Source: an uncultured delta proteobacterium (GTDB lineage: Bacteria > Myxococcota_A > Polyangia > Polyangiales > Polyangiaceae). From it: DNA of 49,121 nt. The number at the start of each line of letters is the position of its first letter. Positions within the stretch are counted from its first letter, which is position 1. Made by a program: the position numbers and the translations under genes. A model generated the notes under the pieces. The model saw only the letters and a list, made by a program, of their open reading frames with translations, was not told the DNA's origin and did not search any database. Positions 15,817 to 49,121 of the stretch are shown here, piece after piece. The stretch is from positions 1-49,121 of the forward strand of contig CAIVJW010000357.1 in the NCBI GenBank assembly GCA_903906315.1. Reading direction: 5' to 3'.

Positions 15817-18606
<2,790 letters not shown>

Positions 18607-41865: not shown

Positions 41866-44800
41866 ATGCCCTCTCTCGCCTTCGGGCTCGATGCGCGCTC
41901 TCGGCGGTCTGTGATCCGCGTCCTGTCGGCCGCCCTCGTGGCCGCGGCGGCGCTGGTCGCCGCGCGGCCGGCGGCGGCGCACTGCGCGGTCACGGTCAGC
42001 GACCTCGCCAACGTGAGCGGCTGCGCGGGCTGCCACAGCGGGGGCGCCGTGCCCGCCGTGGCCGTCACGCCGGCGTCGAGCTGCGCGCAGACCGGGCAGA
42101 AGATCAACCTGACGGGCACGATCGCGAGCGTCAACGGCGGCAACGTCGGCTTCGGCCTGACGACCTCGAGCGGCACGCTGCTCGCCCAGGACGCGAAGAC
42201 CGTGGTCGTCGGGGCGGGCCTCGGCCACGCCTGCGGGCAGAGCCCGACCTCGTTCTCGTTCGGGCTGACCGCCGGGGCCGTGGGCGCGACGACGCTCACG
42301 CTGCTCGGGCTCTCGTCGAACGGCAACGGCGGCGCGAGCGGCGACGGCTACGCGGCCGCGACGGCCACCGTGACGGTGTGCGCGCAGCCCTGCGCGACCT
42401 TCTACCGGGACCTGGACGGCGACGGCTTCGGCGACGCCGCGGTCAAGGTCGTCGGCTGCGCGGCGCCCCCCGGCTACGTCGCGAACGCGACCGACTGCGA
42501 CGACGGCAAGGCCGCGAGATACCCCGGCGCGGCCGAGATCTGCGACGGCCTCGACAACGACTGCAACGCGCAGATCGACGAGGGCAACCCGGGCGGAGGC
42601 GCCGCGTGCGCGACGGGCAAGCTCGGCGTGTGCTCGCCGGGCACGACGGCGTGCGCGGGCGGGGCGATCGCGTGCAACCAGAACGTCCAGCCGAGCGCCG
42701 AGGTCTGCGACGGGTTGACCGACGAGAACTGCAGCGGCGTCGTCGACGAGGGCTGCGGCTGCGTGAACGGCGCGACGGCGCCCTGCTACTCCGGATCGCC
42801 GCCGACCGAGAACGTCGGGATCTGCCACGGCGGGACGAAGACCTGCGTCGCGGGCGCCTACGGGGCGTGCGCGGGCGAGGTGCTGCCGAAGGCCGAGACG
42901 TGCAACGCGCAGGACGACGACTGCGACGGCGTCGCCGACGACGGCGACCCGGGCGGCGGCGTCGCGTGCGCGACGGGCAAGCCGGGCGCGTGCGCCACGG
43001 GCAAGACGACGTGCCTCGGCGGCGCGATCGGCTGCAAGCAGGACGCGCAGCCGGGCCCCGAGACGTGCAACGGGAAGGACGACGACTGCAACGGCACCGT
43101 CGACGACGGCGACCCCGGCGGCGGCGCCGCGTGCGCGACGGGCAAGCCCGGCGTGTGCGCGGCGGGCACGTCGGCGTGCAGCGCGGGCGCGGTCGTGTGC
43201 AACGCGAAGTCGAAGCCGATCGCGGAGACGTGCAACGGGCAGGACGACGACTGCAACGGCGCGACCGACGAGGGCACGACGCGATCGTGCTACCCCGGGC
43301 CGGGCGGCACCGACGGCGTCGGCGCGTGCCACGCGGGCTGGCAAGCGTGCGTCGGCGCGGCCGGCTTCGGGGCGTGCGTGGGCGCGGCGCTGCCCGTCGC
43401 CGAGGCGTGCAACGGCAAGGACGACGACTGCGACGGCACCGTCGACGACGGCGACCCCGGCGGCGGCGCGCCCTGCGACACGGGCAAGGCCGGCGCGTGC
43501 CGGGCGGGCACGACGACCTGCCAGAACGGTGGCGTCGCGTGCGCCGGCAAGATCGCCGTCGCCGAAGCCTGCGACGGCGTCGACGACGACTGCGACGGCG
43601 TGGTCGACAACGGCTGCCCGGACGCCGACGGCGACGGCGTATCCGACGGCTACGAGGCGGTCCTCGGCACCGACCCGCACGACCCCGACAGCGACGACGA
43701 CGGCCTCTTCGACGGGACCGAGGTCGGCCTCGCCTGCGACAACCCGAAGACGGACCTCGCGCTCGGGAGCTGCCGGCCGGACGCCGACCAGGGCGCGACG
43801 GTGACCGACCCGCTCGACGCGGACACGGACCACGGCGGCGCGAGCGACGGATCGGAGGACGCGAACCTGAACGGGCGCCGCGACCCCGGCGAGGCGGACC
43901 CGACGATGGCGCACGGCGACGACGACGCGGACGCGCACGACGCGGACGGCGACGGGCTCTCCGACGCGCTCGAGGGCTTCCTGCACACCGACCCGCTCGA
44001 CGCGGACACCGACGACGACGGCGTCCTCGACGGCGCGGAGCCGAACCCGAGCGCGGACGGCGACCGCGACGGCCTGACGTCGGCGCTCGACCCCGACAGC
44101 GACGACGACGGCCTGCTCGACGGGACCGAGCTCGGCCGGGACTGCCTCGATCCGGCGACCGACACGCGCCTTCATCACTGCCGGCCCGACGCCGACCACG
44201 GCGCGACGACGACCGACCCGCTCGCCGCCGACACGGACGGCGGCGGTTCGCGCGACGGGTCGGAGGACGCGAACCTGAACGGGCGCGTCGACCCGGGCGA
44301 GGGCGACCCGACGAAGGCGCACCACGGCGACGACGCGAAGCTCGCGGACACGGACGGCGACGGCCTCTCGGACGCGCTCGAAGCGACGCTGCGGAGCGAC
44401 CCGAAGGACGCCGACACGGACGACGACGGCGTGCCGGACGGCCTCGAGCCGAACCCGAGCGCGGACCTCGACCACGACGGGCTCGTGTCCGTGCTCGACG
44501 CGGACAGCGACGACGACGGCCTGTTCGACGGGACCGAGCTCGGCCGCGACTGCGCAGCGAAGGGGACCGACCCGGCGAAGAAGGCGTGCGTCGCGGACGC
44601 CGACCACGGGGTGACGAAGACCTCGGCCGCGCTGCGCGACACGGACCGCGGCGGGGCGTCGGACGGCTCCGAGGACGCGAACCTGAACGGCGCCGTCGAC
44701 GCGGGCGAGGGCGACCCCGGCGCGGGGCACGCGGGCGACGACGATCAGAGCCCGGACGGCGACGGCGACGGCCTCTCGGACGCGCTCGAGGCGAAGCTCG

Positions 44801-45519
44801 GCTGCGACCCGAAGGACGCCGACACGGACGACGACGGCGTGCCCGACGGCCACGAGGCGAACCCGAGCGCGGACCCGGACGGCGACGGGAAGATCGACGT
44901 CCTCGACGCGGACAGCGACGGAGACGGGCTGTTCGATGGGACGGAGGCGGGGCTCGACTGCGGGCTGCCCGCGACCGACGCGAGCAAGAAGGCCTGCGTC
45001 GCGGACGCGGACCTCGGCGCGACGGTGACCTCGCCGGTCGACCCGGACACCGATCACGGCGGCGTGAAGGACGGGGCCGAGGACGCGGACCACGACGGCG
45101 CCGTCGGCGCGGGGGAGTCGGACCCCACCGCGGGCCGCGGCGAGGACGACGCGGCGAAGAAGCCCTGCGCGAGGGACGCGGACTGCGGCGACGCGACGAG
45201 CGGGCAGGTGTGCCACGCGGACACGGGCGCCTGCCACGACGGCTGCCGCGGCGTGAACGGGAGCGGCTGCCCGGCCGGGCTCGCGTGCAGCTCGATCGAC
45301 GAGTCGGCGGGGACGTGCGCGGCGGCGGCGGCGTACGCGGAGGCGCCGGCCGCCGAACAGAGCGGCGGGTGCGCGGTGCGATCGGCCGGCGATCGGGGCG
45401 GCGCCGCGGCCTGGGTCGCGATCGCGGCGATCGGGCTTTCGGCCGCGCGCAGGCGGCGACGCGCGGCGCGGCGGGACGCGATCGGACGCGGCGTCGCGGG
45501 CCCCTCGGCGGCCGGCTAG
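41866..45519 (+). CDS. Giant MopE-like / Asp-rich repeat surface protein, MYXO-CTERM-like
   Basis: A 1217-residue exported protein. A signal peptide (about 15-38, ending PAAAHC) is followed by a single CAGCH (53-57), a CxxCH heme-type motif, in a beta-rich domain to about 175. Residues 185-590 carry seven MopE-like units with CNGxDDDCDGxxDDG, in tandem with CATGKxGxC spacers. Residues 608-1100 hold thrombospondin-3-like Asp-rich calcium loops in a super-repeat of 136 residues with three full and one partial copies. The end has a Cys-rich segment, then GGCAVRSAGDRGG, a hydrophobic helix (AAAWVAIAAIGLSAA) and RRRRR, the shape of a MYXO-CTERM sorting signal, although about 20 more residues follow the arginines. 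It probably sits on the surface or is released. The function is unknown; the repeats suggest calcium and possibly metal binding. Confidence 0.9.
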   Translation: MPSLAFGLDARSRRSVIRVLSAALVAAAALVAARPAAAHCAVTVSDLANVSGCAGCHSGGAVPAVAVTPASSCAQTGQKINLTGTIASVNGGNVGFGLTTSSGTLLAQDAKTVVVGAGLGHACGQSPTSFSFGLTAGAVGATTLTLLGLSSNGNGGASGDGYAAATATVTVCAQPCATFYRDLDGDGFGDAAVKVVGCAAPPGYVANATDCDDGKAARYPGAAEICDGLDNDCNAQIDEGNPGGGAACATGKLGVCSPGTTACAGGAIACNQNVQPSAEVCDGLTDENCSGVVDEGCGCVNGATAPCYSGSPPTENVGICHGGTKTCVAGAYGACAGEVLPKAETCNAQDDDCDGVADDGDPGGGVACATGKPGACATGKTTCLGGAIGCKQDAQPGPETCNGKDDDCNGTVDDGDPGGGAACATGKPGVCAAGTSACSAGAVVCNAKSKPIAETCNGQDDDCNGATDEGTTRSCYPGPGGTDGVGACHAGWQACVGAAGFGACVGAALPVAEACNGKDDDCDGTVDDGDPGGGAPCDTGKAGACRAGTTTCQNGGVACAGKIAVAEACDGVDDDCDGVVDNGCPDADGDGVSDGYEAVLGTDPHDPDSDDDGLFDGTEVGLACDNPKTDLALGSCRPDADQGATVTDPLDADTDHGGASDGSEDANLNGRRDPGEADPTMAHGDDDADAHDADGDGLSDALEGFLHTDPLDADTDDDGVLDGAEPNPSADGDRDGLTSALDPDSDDDGLLDGTELGRDCLDPATDTRLHHCRPDADHGATTTDPLAADTDGGGSRDGSEDANLNGRVDPGEGDPTKAHHGDDAKLADTDGDGLSDALEATLRSDPKDADTDDDGVPDGLEPNPSADLDHDGLVSVLDADSDDDGLFDGTELGRDCAAKGTDPAKKACVADADHGVTKTSAALRDTDRGGASDGSEDANLNGAVDAGEGDPGAGHAGDDDQSPDGDGDGLSDALEAKLGCDPKDADTDDDGVPDGHEANPSADPDGDGKIDVLDADSDGDGLFDGTEAGLDCGLPATDASKKACVADADLGATVTSPVDPDTDHGGVKDGAEDADHDGAVGAGESDPTAGRGEDDAAKKPCARDADCGDATSGQVCHADTGACHDGCRGVNGSGCPAGLACSSIDESAGTCAAAAAYAEAPAAEQSGGCAVRSAGDRGGAAAWVAIAAIGLSAARRRRRAARRDAIGRGVAGPSAAG
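43687..45165 (+). repeat. 408-bp tandem super-repeat coding for Asp-rich loops
   Basis: GACAGCGACG-type starts (DSDDDGLFDGTE and variants) fall at 43687, 44095, 44503 and 44911, each exactly 408 bases or 136 codons apart. Each unit repeats SEDANLNG, LSDALE, DTDDDGV and EPNPSAD at fixed places. The fourth copy is cut short after about 85 codons. Confidence 0.9.
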
Positions 45520-45854: not shown

Positions 45855-48800
45855 ATGCGGATCCTCCCCCCTTCAAGTGTGCGAGCCCTCACCGGCTTCG
45901 CTGAGAACCCACGGCTCGCGCTCCCTCGCTGGGTAGCGCTCGCGCTTTCCCTCGCCGCCGCCGGATGCGGCGGAGGCGAGGCGGCGCTGCTCTCCGCCAG
46001 CACGGGCGGCGACACGACCTCGACCACCACGACGCTGACCGGCAGCGGCGGCGCGGGTGGCGCCACCGGATCGGGCGGCCAGGGCGGCAGCACGGCGACC
46101 TGCACGGGCGGCACGACCGAGTGCGGCGGCGTGTGCATCGATCTGTCGAAGGACCCGAAGCACTGCGGCGGCTGCGCCACGTCGTGCAAGGAGGGCGCAG
46201 CCTGCGAGAAGGGTCAGTGCACCGTGGTGTGCAAGGACCCGCAGGTGAAGTGCGGCGACGCCTGCGTCGACCTCCAGACGAGCAGCACGAGCTGCGGCGC
46301 GTGTGACAAGGCGTGCGCCGCCGGCGAGGCGTGCGAAAAGGGCGCCTGCGTCGTCGCGTGCACGGGCGGCCTCTCGAAGTGCGGCGACGCATGCGCCGAC
46401 CTCGCGAAGGACCCGACCAACTGCGGCGAGTGCGGCAAGGCGTGCGCCGCGGGCGAGGTCTGCTCCAACGGCAGCTGTGCCCTCTCCTGCCAGGCGAGCC
46501 TCACGGAGTGCGGCGGCTTGTGCGTCAACCTGCAGACCGACGTCGTCAACTGCGGCGCGTGCGAGATCGGCTGCGCCGCCGGTGAGGTCTGCTCGGGCGG
46601 CGTCTGCGGCCTCTCCTGCCAGGCCGGCCTCGAGAACTGCGCGGGCACCTGCGTCAACCTCGGCAACGACATCGGCAACTGCGGCACCTGCGGCACCGCG
46701 TGCGCCGCGGGCGAGGTGTGCTCGAACGGGGTCTGCTCGGTCTCGTGCCAGCAGAGCCTCACGCTGTGCAACGGAGTCTGCGCCAACCTGCAGAGCGACA
46801 TCGCGAACTGCGGCAAGTGCGGCGCGGAGTGCGCGCTCGGCGAGGTCTGCTCGGGCGGCGTCTGCGGCCTCTCGTGCCAGCAGGGGCTGACCATCTGCAA
46901 CGGCCTGTGCGTGAACGTGCAGACCGACATCGCCAACTGCGGCAACTGCGGCACGACGTGCGCGGCCGGCGAGGTGTGCTCGAACGGCGCCTGCGCGCTC
47001 TCCTGCCAGAACAGCCTCGATAACTGCAGCGGCGTCTGCGTCAACCTGCAGACCGACCTCGCGAACTGCGGCAAGTGCGCGAGCCCGTGCGCGGCCGGCC
47101 AGGTGTGCTCGAACGGCGCCTGCGCGCTGTCGTGCCAGCAGAGCCTCGACAACTGCAACGGTCAGTGCGTCAACCTGCAGAGCGACCTCGCGAACTGCGG
47201 CAAGTGCGGCACGACGTGCGCGGCCGGCCAGGTGTGCTCGAAGGGCGCCTGCTCCGTCTCGTGCCAGCAGGGCCTCACGCTCTGCGACGGCATCTGCGTC
47301 AACCTCCAGTCCGACATCGGCGCCTGCGGCGCGTGCGGCAAGGCCTGCGCGGCCGGTGAGGTTTGCACCAAGGGTGCCTGCACGCTCTCGTGCCAGGCGG
47401 GCCTCACGAGCTGCGGCGGCGTCTGCACGAACCTCGACACCGACCTCGCGAACTGCGGCGCCTGCGCCAAGACCTGCAACGCCGGAGAGGTCTGCTCGAA
47501 GGGCGCCTGCGCGGTCTCCTGCCAGGCGGGCCTGACCAACTGCTTCGGCATCTGCGTCGACCTCAAGACGGACGACGCGAACTGCGGCAAGTGCTCCGCG
47601 AACTGCGGCGCCGGCCAGGTGTGCACGGGCGGCGCTTGCGTCGTCTCGTGCCAGGCCGGGCTCACCAACTGCAGCGGCCTCTGCGTGAACATGAAGAGCG
47701 ATCTGGCCAACTGCGGCGCGTGCGGCGTGACCTGCTCGGCGGGCCAGGCCTGCGCGAACGGCGTCTGCTCGCTCACCTGCCAGGCCGGCCTGACGAACTG
47801 CAACGGCTCCTGCGCGAACCTGCTGACCGACAACGTGAACTGCGGCGCCTGCGCCAAGACGTGCGGCGCGGGCCAGGTTTGCACGAACGGCACCTGCGCG
47901 CTCACGTGCCAGCAGGGGCTCACGGCGTGCAACGGCGTCTGCGCCAACCTGCTCTCCGACAACGGCAACTGCGGCGCGTGCGGCAAGACCTGCGGCGGCG
48001 GCGAGGTGTGCTCGAACGGCGTGTGCGCGCTGTCGTGCCAGGCGGGGCTCACCTCGTGCAACGGCGTCTGCGTCAACCTCACGACCGACAGCACCAACTG
48101 CGGCGCGTGCGGCAAGGGCTGCGGAGCGGGCCAGATCTGCTCGGCCGGCTTGTGCGCGGTGTCGTGCCAGCAGGGCCTCAACAACTGCAACGGCGTCTGC
48201 GCCAACCTCCAGACCGACAGCGCGAACTGCGGCGCGTGCGCGAAGGTCTGCGCGGCGGGCCAGACGTGCTCGGCCGGCGCTTGCTCGCTGACGTGCCAGG
48301 CGGGCCTCACGATCTGCAACGGCGTCTGCGTCAACCTCCAGAGCGACGGCGCCAACTGCGGCGGCTGCAACAAGCCGTGCGCGGCCGGTCAGGTCTGCTC
48401 GGGCGGCGTCTGCGGCCTCACCTGCCAGCAGGGGCTCACCAACTGCAGCGGCGTGTGCACCAACCCGAAGTTCGACCCCTCGAACTGCGGCCAGTGCGGC
48501 GTCACGTGCCCGAACCAGAACGGCATCGGCCTCTGCGGTAACGGCTCGTGCCTCGGCATCTCGTGCAACAACGGCTTCGCCAACTGCGACAACGTCCTGG
48601 CGACCGGCTGCGAGGCCAACCTCCAGACGTCGAACGCGAACTGCGGCTCGTGCGGCAAGGTGTGCGGGGCCAACGAGGCCTGCACGGCGGGCGTCTGCAA
48701 GGCGCTCTGCGGCCCGCTCAACGGCTCGCAGACGTTCGCCTACTCGGGCGCGCAGCAGGCCTTCACCGTCCCGGCCTGCGTCACGAAGATCAAGATCGAG

Positions 48801-49121
48801 ACCTGGGGCGGCCAGGGCGGCACGCCGACCAGCAACTCGGGCTGCGGCGGCAACCCGGACGTCGGCGGCAAGGGCGGCTACGCGTACGGCGAGCTCGCCG
48901 TGACGCCCGGCGAGACCCTGGAGATCTGGGTCGGCGGCGGCGGCGGCACGGGCAACGCGCCCGGCTTCAACGGCGGCGGCGGCAGCTGCTCGACGGCGTC
49001 CACGTGCTCCGGCGGCGGCGGCGCGTCGGACGTCCGGCGCGGCGCGGGCCTCGCGGCGCGCGTCATCGTGGCAGGCGGCGGCGGCGGCGCCGAGTACTCC
49101 TGCGGCGGCCAGGGCGGCGGC
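45855..49121 (+). CDS. Lipoprotein with Stig1-like Cys repeats and ALK-like Gly-rich domain (3' end missing)
   Basis: The reading frame is open for 1089 codons to the window edge. The start at ATG 45855 (MRILPPSSVRALTG) is the upstream option; GTG 45879 is an alternative. No Shine-Dalgarno is seen. A signal peptide (RWVALALSLAAAGC) gives a lipobox with Cys 38. A Thr/Gly stalk (TTSTTTTLTGSGGAGG) follows. About twenty tandem repeats of about 43 residues (residues 82-948) each have eight cysteines, as in CNGVCVNLQTD, NCGACGKTC, AAGEVCSNGVC; the spacing recalls plant Stig1 proteins. From about residue 955 a glycine-rich domain begins: FAYSGAQQAFTVPACVTKIK, ETWGGQGG, GGKGGYAYGELAVTPGE, WVGGGGGTG and VIVAGGGGGAEY. 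This matches the pattern of the glycine-rich domain of the animal ALK receptor. The protein is extracellular and probably adhesive or structural. Confidence 0.88.
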   Translation, partial: MRILPPSSVRALTGFAENPRLALPRWVALALSLAAAGCGGGEAALLSASTGGDTTSTTTTLTGSGGAGGATGSGGQGGSTATCTGGTTECGGVCIDLSKDPKHCGGCATSCKEGAACEKGQCTVVCKDPQVKCGDACVDLQTSSTSCGACDKACAAGEACEKGACVVACTGGLSKCGDACADLAKDPTNCGECGKACAAGEVCSNGSCALSCQASLTECGGLCVNLQTDVVNCGACEIGCAAGEVCSGGVCGLSCQAGLENCAGTCVNLGNDIGNCGTCGTACAAGEVCSNGVCSVSCQQSLTLCNGVCANLQSDIANCGKCGAECALGEVCSGGVCGLSCQQGLTICNGLCVNVQTDIANCGNCGTTCAAGEVCSNGACALSCQNSLDNCSGVCVNLQTDLANCGKCASPCAAGQVCSNGACALSCQQSLDNCNGQCVNLQSDLANCGKCGTTCAAGQVCSKGACSVSCQQGLTLCDGICVNLQSDIGACGACGKACAAGEVCTKGACTLSCQAGLTSCGGVCTNLDTDLANCGACAKTCNAGEVCSKGACAVSCQAGLTNCFGICVDLKTDDANCGKCSANCGAGQVCTGGACVVSCQAGLTNCSGLCVNMKSDLANCGACGVTCSAGQACANGVCSLTCQAGLTNCNGSCANLLTDNVNCGACAKTCGAGQVCTNGTCALTCQQGLTACNGVCANLLSDNGNCGACGKTCGGGEVCSNGVCALSCQAGLTSCNGVCVNLTTDSTNCGACGKGCGAGQICSAGLCAVSCQQGLNNCNGVCANLQTDSANCGACAKVCAAGQTCSAGACSLTCQAGLTICNGVCVNLQSDGANCGGCNKPCAAGQVCSGGVCGLTCQQGLTNCSGVCTNPKFDPSNCGQCGVTCPNQNGIGLCGNGSCLGISCNNGFANCDNVLATGCEANLQTSNANCGSCGKVCGANEACTAGVCKALCGPLNGSQTFAYSGAQQAFTVPACVTKIKIETWGGQGGTPTSNSGCGGNPDVGGKGGYAYGELAVTPGETLEIWVGGGGGTGNAPGFNGGGGSCSTASTCSGGGGASDVRRGAGLAARVIVAGGGGGAEYSCGGQGGG
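46098..48698 (+). repeat. About twenty 129-bp tandem repeats of eight-Cys modules
   Basis: Each unit is about 43 codons, with cysteine spacing C-x6-C-x3-C-x9-C-x2-C-x3-C-x5-C-x4-C. The first three units are the most diverged, the central units are very similar, and the last two are longer (extra residues in CPNQNGIGLCGNG and CDNVLATGCEAN). Units keep frame throughout. Confidence 0.9.

Follow-up and report, generated by a model that had tools for sequence, protein, structure and literature searches.

The TG fold, in which a TNF-like sandwich is combined with a glycine-rich bundle, has been solved in animal receptors and in phage tips. In the animal receptors ALK and LTK it belongs to Pfam family PF12810, ALK_LTK_GRD (structures 7nx1, 7nwz, 7mzy, 7lir and others), and, to judge from the titles of the solved ALK:ALKAL complexes among our structure matches, ALK and LTK bind ligand with this domain. 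For gp24 of the cyanophage Pam3, the authors of the structural account propose that the host receptor is bound by variable distal loops, which a conserved stem of glycines carries (PMC9608196). A parallel of another kind is offered by the myxobacterial recognition receptor TraA, which bears a head together with Cys-rich repeats, the latter proposed to serve as a rigid stalk (PMC3325183). Here the TG fold is tied, by sequence and structure searches, to a cellular bacterial protein in which it sits at the end of a stalk of Cys modules.

The window, by which we mean the whole stretch of DNA analysed (49,121 nucleotides), is the complete contig C357 of an 8.79 Mb genome in 455 contigs, and because it is the whole contig, the tip domain is truncated at its end. 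The coding sequence of the stalk-plus-tip protein (45855..49121, forward strand) gives the first 1089 residues, with the frame open to the contig end; 109 more lie on the reverse strand of contig C233. This second contig end came up when the C-terminal half of the domain from a relative was searched in the same genome, and its reverse strand starts, in frame, with the last 27 bases of the window (49095..49121, forward strand), a stretch common to the two contig ends that joins the gene halves. Genome-wide, the 27-mer occurs twice, both times at a contig end. The first 27 bases of the window are also common to another contig end, C356, and shared 27-base ends therefore appear to be a feature of this assembly. 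The joined protein has 1198 residues and ends ...GNGQITLTW, with the stop at the domain end. The initial annotation had pointed past position 49121 for the remainder of the domain, and it is indeed there: C233 completes the domain, which forms the C-terminal end of the protein. The upstream neighbour (41866-45516, forward strand; 1217 residues) has a choice-of-anchor V domain (48 bits, cut-off 42) and a partial likeness to CglD below the cut-off (155.9 versus 400); by eye, Asp-rich repeats of the calcium type and an Arg-rich, MYXO-CTERM-like end are also apparent.

The stalk-plus-tip protein begins with a putative signal peptide (45855..45968, forward strand), recognised by inspection and a regular expression. 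Its lipobox-like end, ...LSLAAAG followed by C, has Ala, not Leu, at position -3, and the predicted lipid-bearing Cys is encoded at 45966-45968. On this reading of the sequence the protein is probably lipid-anchored, a putative lipoprotein. A Ser/Thr/Gly-rich linker, placed by inspection at approximately 45969..46094 (forward strand), leads from the lipid Cys to the first Cys module. The stalk itself (46095..48710, forward strand, limits approximate) comprises, by profiles and spacing, 20 Cys modules with a 43-residue period, of the NCBIfam C_rich_MXAN6577 and Pfam Stig1 kinds. The count of twenty modules made in the initial annotation is exact: the pattern xCGxCxxxC has 20 matches in the joined protein, spaced by 43 residues 18 times and by 52 once. 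With 1212.8 bits in 16 stretches against a cut-off of 100, the protein is a member of NF041328 (C_rich_MXAN6577), and Pfam Stig1 matches 19 stretches of the stalk.

Residues 955-1089 (48717..49121, forward strand) form the N-terminal part of an ALK_LTK_GRD (PF12810; TNF-like/glycine-rich) tip of about 244 residues. The motifs from which an ALK-like glycine-rich domain had been suspected, FTVPACVTKIK, TWGGQGG, KGGYAYGELAVTPGE, GGGGGTGN, GGGGASDVRRG and VIVAGGGGGAEY, are all in frame where the initial annotation had placed them. PF12810 matches residues 980-1089 of the window part with 45.9 bits (E 9.2e-12; Pfam cut-off 24.5) and the joined domain with 67.8 bits (E 1.9e-18), the latter match ending at profile position 203 of 243. 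Glycine makes up 36% of the domain (87 of 245 residues). Because none of eight scrambled controls (seven shuffles and one reversal of the same letters) gives a Pfam match, composition alone does not explain the ALK_LTK_GRD match. The reverse search points the same way. A profile of bacterial domains only (16 domains including the window part, 239 positions) was searched against 177,635 PDB sequences, and all nine matches at E <= 10 belong to ALK, LTK or SCD-2, the homologue from worms; their E values run from 9.3e-14 to 3.4e-6, with large HMMER bias terms, and the best match spans profile positions 15-238 of 239. Used as a single phmmer query against the PDB, the window part missed ALK, and its only two matches, at E 0.93 and 1.3, are of chance level. 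The tip has four Cys (in GCGG, GGSC, STC and YSC in the window) that are kept in its nearest relatives L032, L033 and L097, with one shifted in L090, and that may form two disulfides in the loops.

The predicted structures lead to the same family. The model of the truncated window part has a pLDDT of 87.5 and a pTM of 0.82; ranks 1-15 of its Foldseek matches are all ALK, LTK or SCD-2 and the Pam3 fibre is at rank 16, with a best E that is modest (0.015). The complete-domain fold was modelled on a homologue from Nannocystis poenicansa, which shares 68% identity with the window part. Its best model reaches pLDDT 90.3 and pTM 0.90, and three of the five models have a mean pLDDT of 77-83. Foldseek finds 24 chains at E <= 0.001 for this homologue: 21 are of ALK, LTK or SCD-2, and the remaining three come from phages, two from the tail tip of mycobacteriophage Bxb1 and one from the fibre of cyanophage Pam3. 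A second aligner gives Z scores of 17.3-15.1 for the ALK family and 10.8-10.1 for the phage tips, the next row standing at 4.1. The rmsd is about 9-12 Å in the long Foldseek alignments (ALK rows) and 2.7-3.5 Å over 179-191 residues in the second aligner. From these two models, the tip is predicted to be a TNF-like sandwich with a glycine-rich bundle, that is, a TG fold. The ALK likeness first noticed by motif order is thus borne out by the Pfam search, in the window part and in the joined domain, by the PDB reverse search and by two structure models, for both of which ALK/LTK is the best match. The initial annotation had also said what would undo it, namely low-complexity matches only and no ordered fold; the shuffles are blank and the models ordered.

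Since PF12810 matches many bacteria, to meet the domain in a bacterium is not in itself surprising. Within the order, 12 of 144 genomes carry ALK_LTK_GRD, as do 48 of 377 across the phylum Myxococcota, against none of 14 control genomes in either survey, and a scan of genome contigs gave 23 loci from Myxococcota, Bacteroidota, Bacillota, Eremiobacterota, Spirochaetaceae, Actinoplanes and others. The terminal position of the tip recurs: the chain stops no more than 15 residues past the domain in 28 of the 41 homologous domains whose 3' end is complete, and several Bacteroidota have the domain near the N terminus instead. The part that precedes it varies, being Stig1/MXAN6577 in the window protein and in L002, L003 and L007, DUF4215/myxo_disulf_rpt in Nannocystis, Dicty_CTDC in L092 and hexapeptide repeats in L084. 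A fibrinogen-like stretch with a YCDM motif stands directly before the domain in L080, L084, L086 and L089, which may carry two animal-like heads in tandem; Fibrinogen_C was not called by Pfam in L084, the one of these four that was scanned. Separately, a Myxococcota family with small genomes (f45; L075-L079, L081, L088 and L091) has up to seven matches to the domain per genome, the best with 187 bits over profile positions 2-242, most of them lying in open frames that are some 1000-1400 residues long and contain few Cys.

A tree was built from 43 domains. L038 and L041 were dropped because they duplicate L002 and L005, L011 had no match to the profile, and L007 was left out, its domain match ending below the limit set. 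Eleven of the 40 inner branches are well supported. The window tip groups with two Nannocystis tips and with L090 and L097 (DUF4215-like repeats) at 99/99, and the L002 and L003 tips, which sit on the same stalk type as the window tip, fall in another part of the tree. A constrained tree that holds the window tip together with L002 and L003 is 19 log units worse and is not rejected (p-AU 0.268). Given the 99/99 grouping on the one hand and this p-AU on the other, these sequences make exchange of tips between stalks likely, not proven, and two separate joinings of stalk and tip are not claimed. The tip domain may or may not have a recent phage origin. PHROGs matches comprise several families of unknown function, and a search of a phage collection gave a single record, Brevibacillus phage MRSA107, covering 48% of the query. 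In this unannotated record (KY038360.1), positions 16513-16884 encode a segment that shares 52-54% identity with the tip domain.

The stalk, for its part, belongs to a large family in the same genome, in which NF041328 matches 125 places. Twenty regions were fetched (e.g. L055-L074), yielding 21 frames with at least three modules, and 10 tails were scanned. Five tails have matches above cut-off: two to Fibrinogen_C, one to a DDR1-2 discoidin-like domain, one to Kelch and TIG, and one to propeller families (and Stig1). No match above a cut-off was seen in the remaining five of the 10. The stalk is thus a shared mount on which different heads sit, and several of these heads are of kinds known to bind ligands.

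We propose that this is a secreted, probably lipid-anchored surface protein whose Cys stalk presents the TNF-like/glycine-rich head as an adhesin or recognition tip, a reading to which we assign a probability of roughly 0.7. The place of the tip on the stalk suggests a binding role, and the case for binding at the surface draws by analogy on three parallels: ligand binding by ALK/LTK, the Pam3 gp24 tip and the head-on-stalk arrangement of TraA. In the proposed arrangement, the 20 disulfide-rich modules would form a long, stiff stalk on the outer surface, which would hold the C-terminal TNF-like/glycine-rich domain away from the cell. The conserved glycine lattice would serve as a scaffold, while protein or glycan would be bound by the variable loops that separate the runs of glycine. 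The tip would most likely be an adhesin or recognition head, and its partner could lie on kin, prey or matrix. The initial annotation had likewise suggested that the domain may mediate cell-cell contact.

Glycine-rich proteins can be structural too, and the high Cys and Gly content would also fit a matrix protein in which Cys-rich rods and glycine-rich ends self-assemble, with no specific partner, into an extracellular or spore-coat layer. The 125 stalk-family places in one genome would suit a bulk material, as would the genomes with many tip copies (up to seven matches). We nevertheless consider such a layer unlikely, because the tip is a single, unrepeated, ordered domain at the chain end with the fold of ligand-binding heads, and because paralogous stalks bear diverse heads. 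A slightly lower probability still attaches to a signal receptor or co-receptor whose tip, like that of ALK, senses a soluble ligand and relays the signal via a partner membrane protein. The same domain in ALK binds a secreted ligand, as the titles of the solved ALK:ALKAL complexes indicate, but here the chain stops at the tip and no transmembrane or kinase part was found, and a protein held solely by lipid cannot signal alone. The genome also has no match to ALKAL (PF15129), though the control genomes are silent too. Finally, a glycine-rich tail that lacks order and is similar to ALK in composition alone, for which the 36% Gly and the large bias terms might speak, is refuted by the blank shuffles, the bacterial-profile search that finds only ALK-family chains in the PDB and the confident models, with the well supported tree branches alongside, and deserves hardly any weight.

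We found no account of the stalk-plus-ALK_LTK_GRD architecture in the literature searched, which was mostly without subscription papers, so it is possibly published. The novelty lies in the architecture, in its being complete and recurring on different stalks, and in a fold search linking a cellular bacterial domain both to ALK and to phage tips. A myxobacterial stalk family is also named, and its heads may control encounters with kin or prey. Much more tentatively, myxobacteria might run a modular surface-recognition system of interchangeable Cys-rich stalks and heads, one head being the ALK ligand-binding module; if so, the animal ALK module would have functioning relatives in bacteria and phages, by which other cells are recognised apart from, and perhaps before, animal signalling. 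If binding is shown, the protein would offer a testable bacterial setting for the function of the glycine lattice and the origin of the ALK module.

Set beside the known systems, the tip resembles the ALK/LTK TG domain in profile searches both ways, in motif order and in overall fold. Its domain of about 244 residues is some tens shorter than the ALK stretch aligned by the bacterial profile, and, unlike the receptor domains, it sits on a bacterial Cys-repeat stalk; EGF-like, transmembrane and kinase parts were not found in the Pfam scan of the 1089 residues, and the stop codon comes directly after the domain. Like Pam3 gp24 and the Bxb1 tail tip (Z 10.8 and 10.2), the protein carries a TNF-like and glycine-rich fold distally, but gp24 is a trimer with an alpha-helical shaft and a chaperone, whereas the window protein has Cys modules before its tip and no known chaperone. 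The closest tips in the contig scan, those of Nannocystis (L032 and L033; 68% identical over the window part), share the C-terminal place and the lipobox-like start; theirs is a DUF4215/myxo_disulf_rpt stalk, in contrast to the MXAN6577/Stig1 modules of the window. The Sandaracinaceae proteins (L038/L002/L003, and L007) combine the same stalk family and the same kind of tip in one protein, with four to eight modules rather than 20. Like TraA of Myxococcus (PMC3325183, PMC3820747), the protein would place a binding head on Cys-rich repeats at a myxobacterial surface. TraA has an N-terminal PA14 head, TIGR04201 repeats and a C-terminal MYXO-CTERM anchor, whereas no PA14 was found by Pfam among the 1089 residues encoded in the window and the chain ends at the glycine-rich domain, without MYXO-CTERM. 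The window protein is thus neither an ALK receptor nor a TraA, and is a member of both PF12810 and the MXAN_6577 stalk family.
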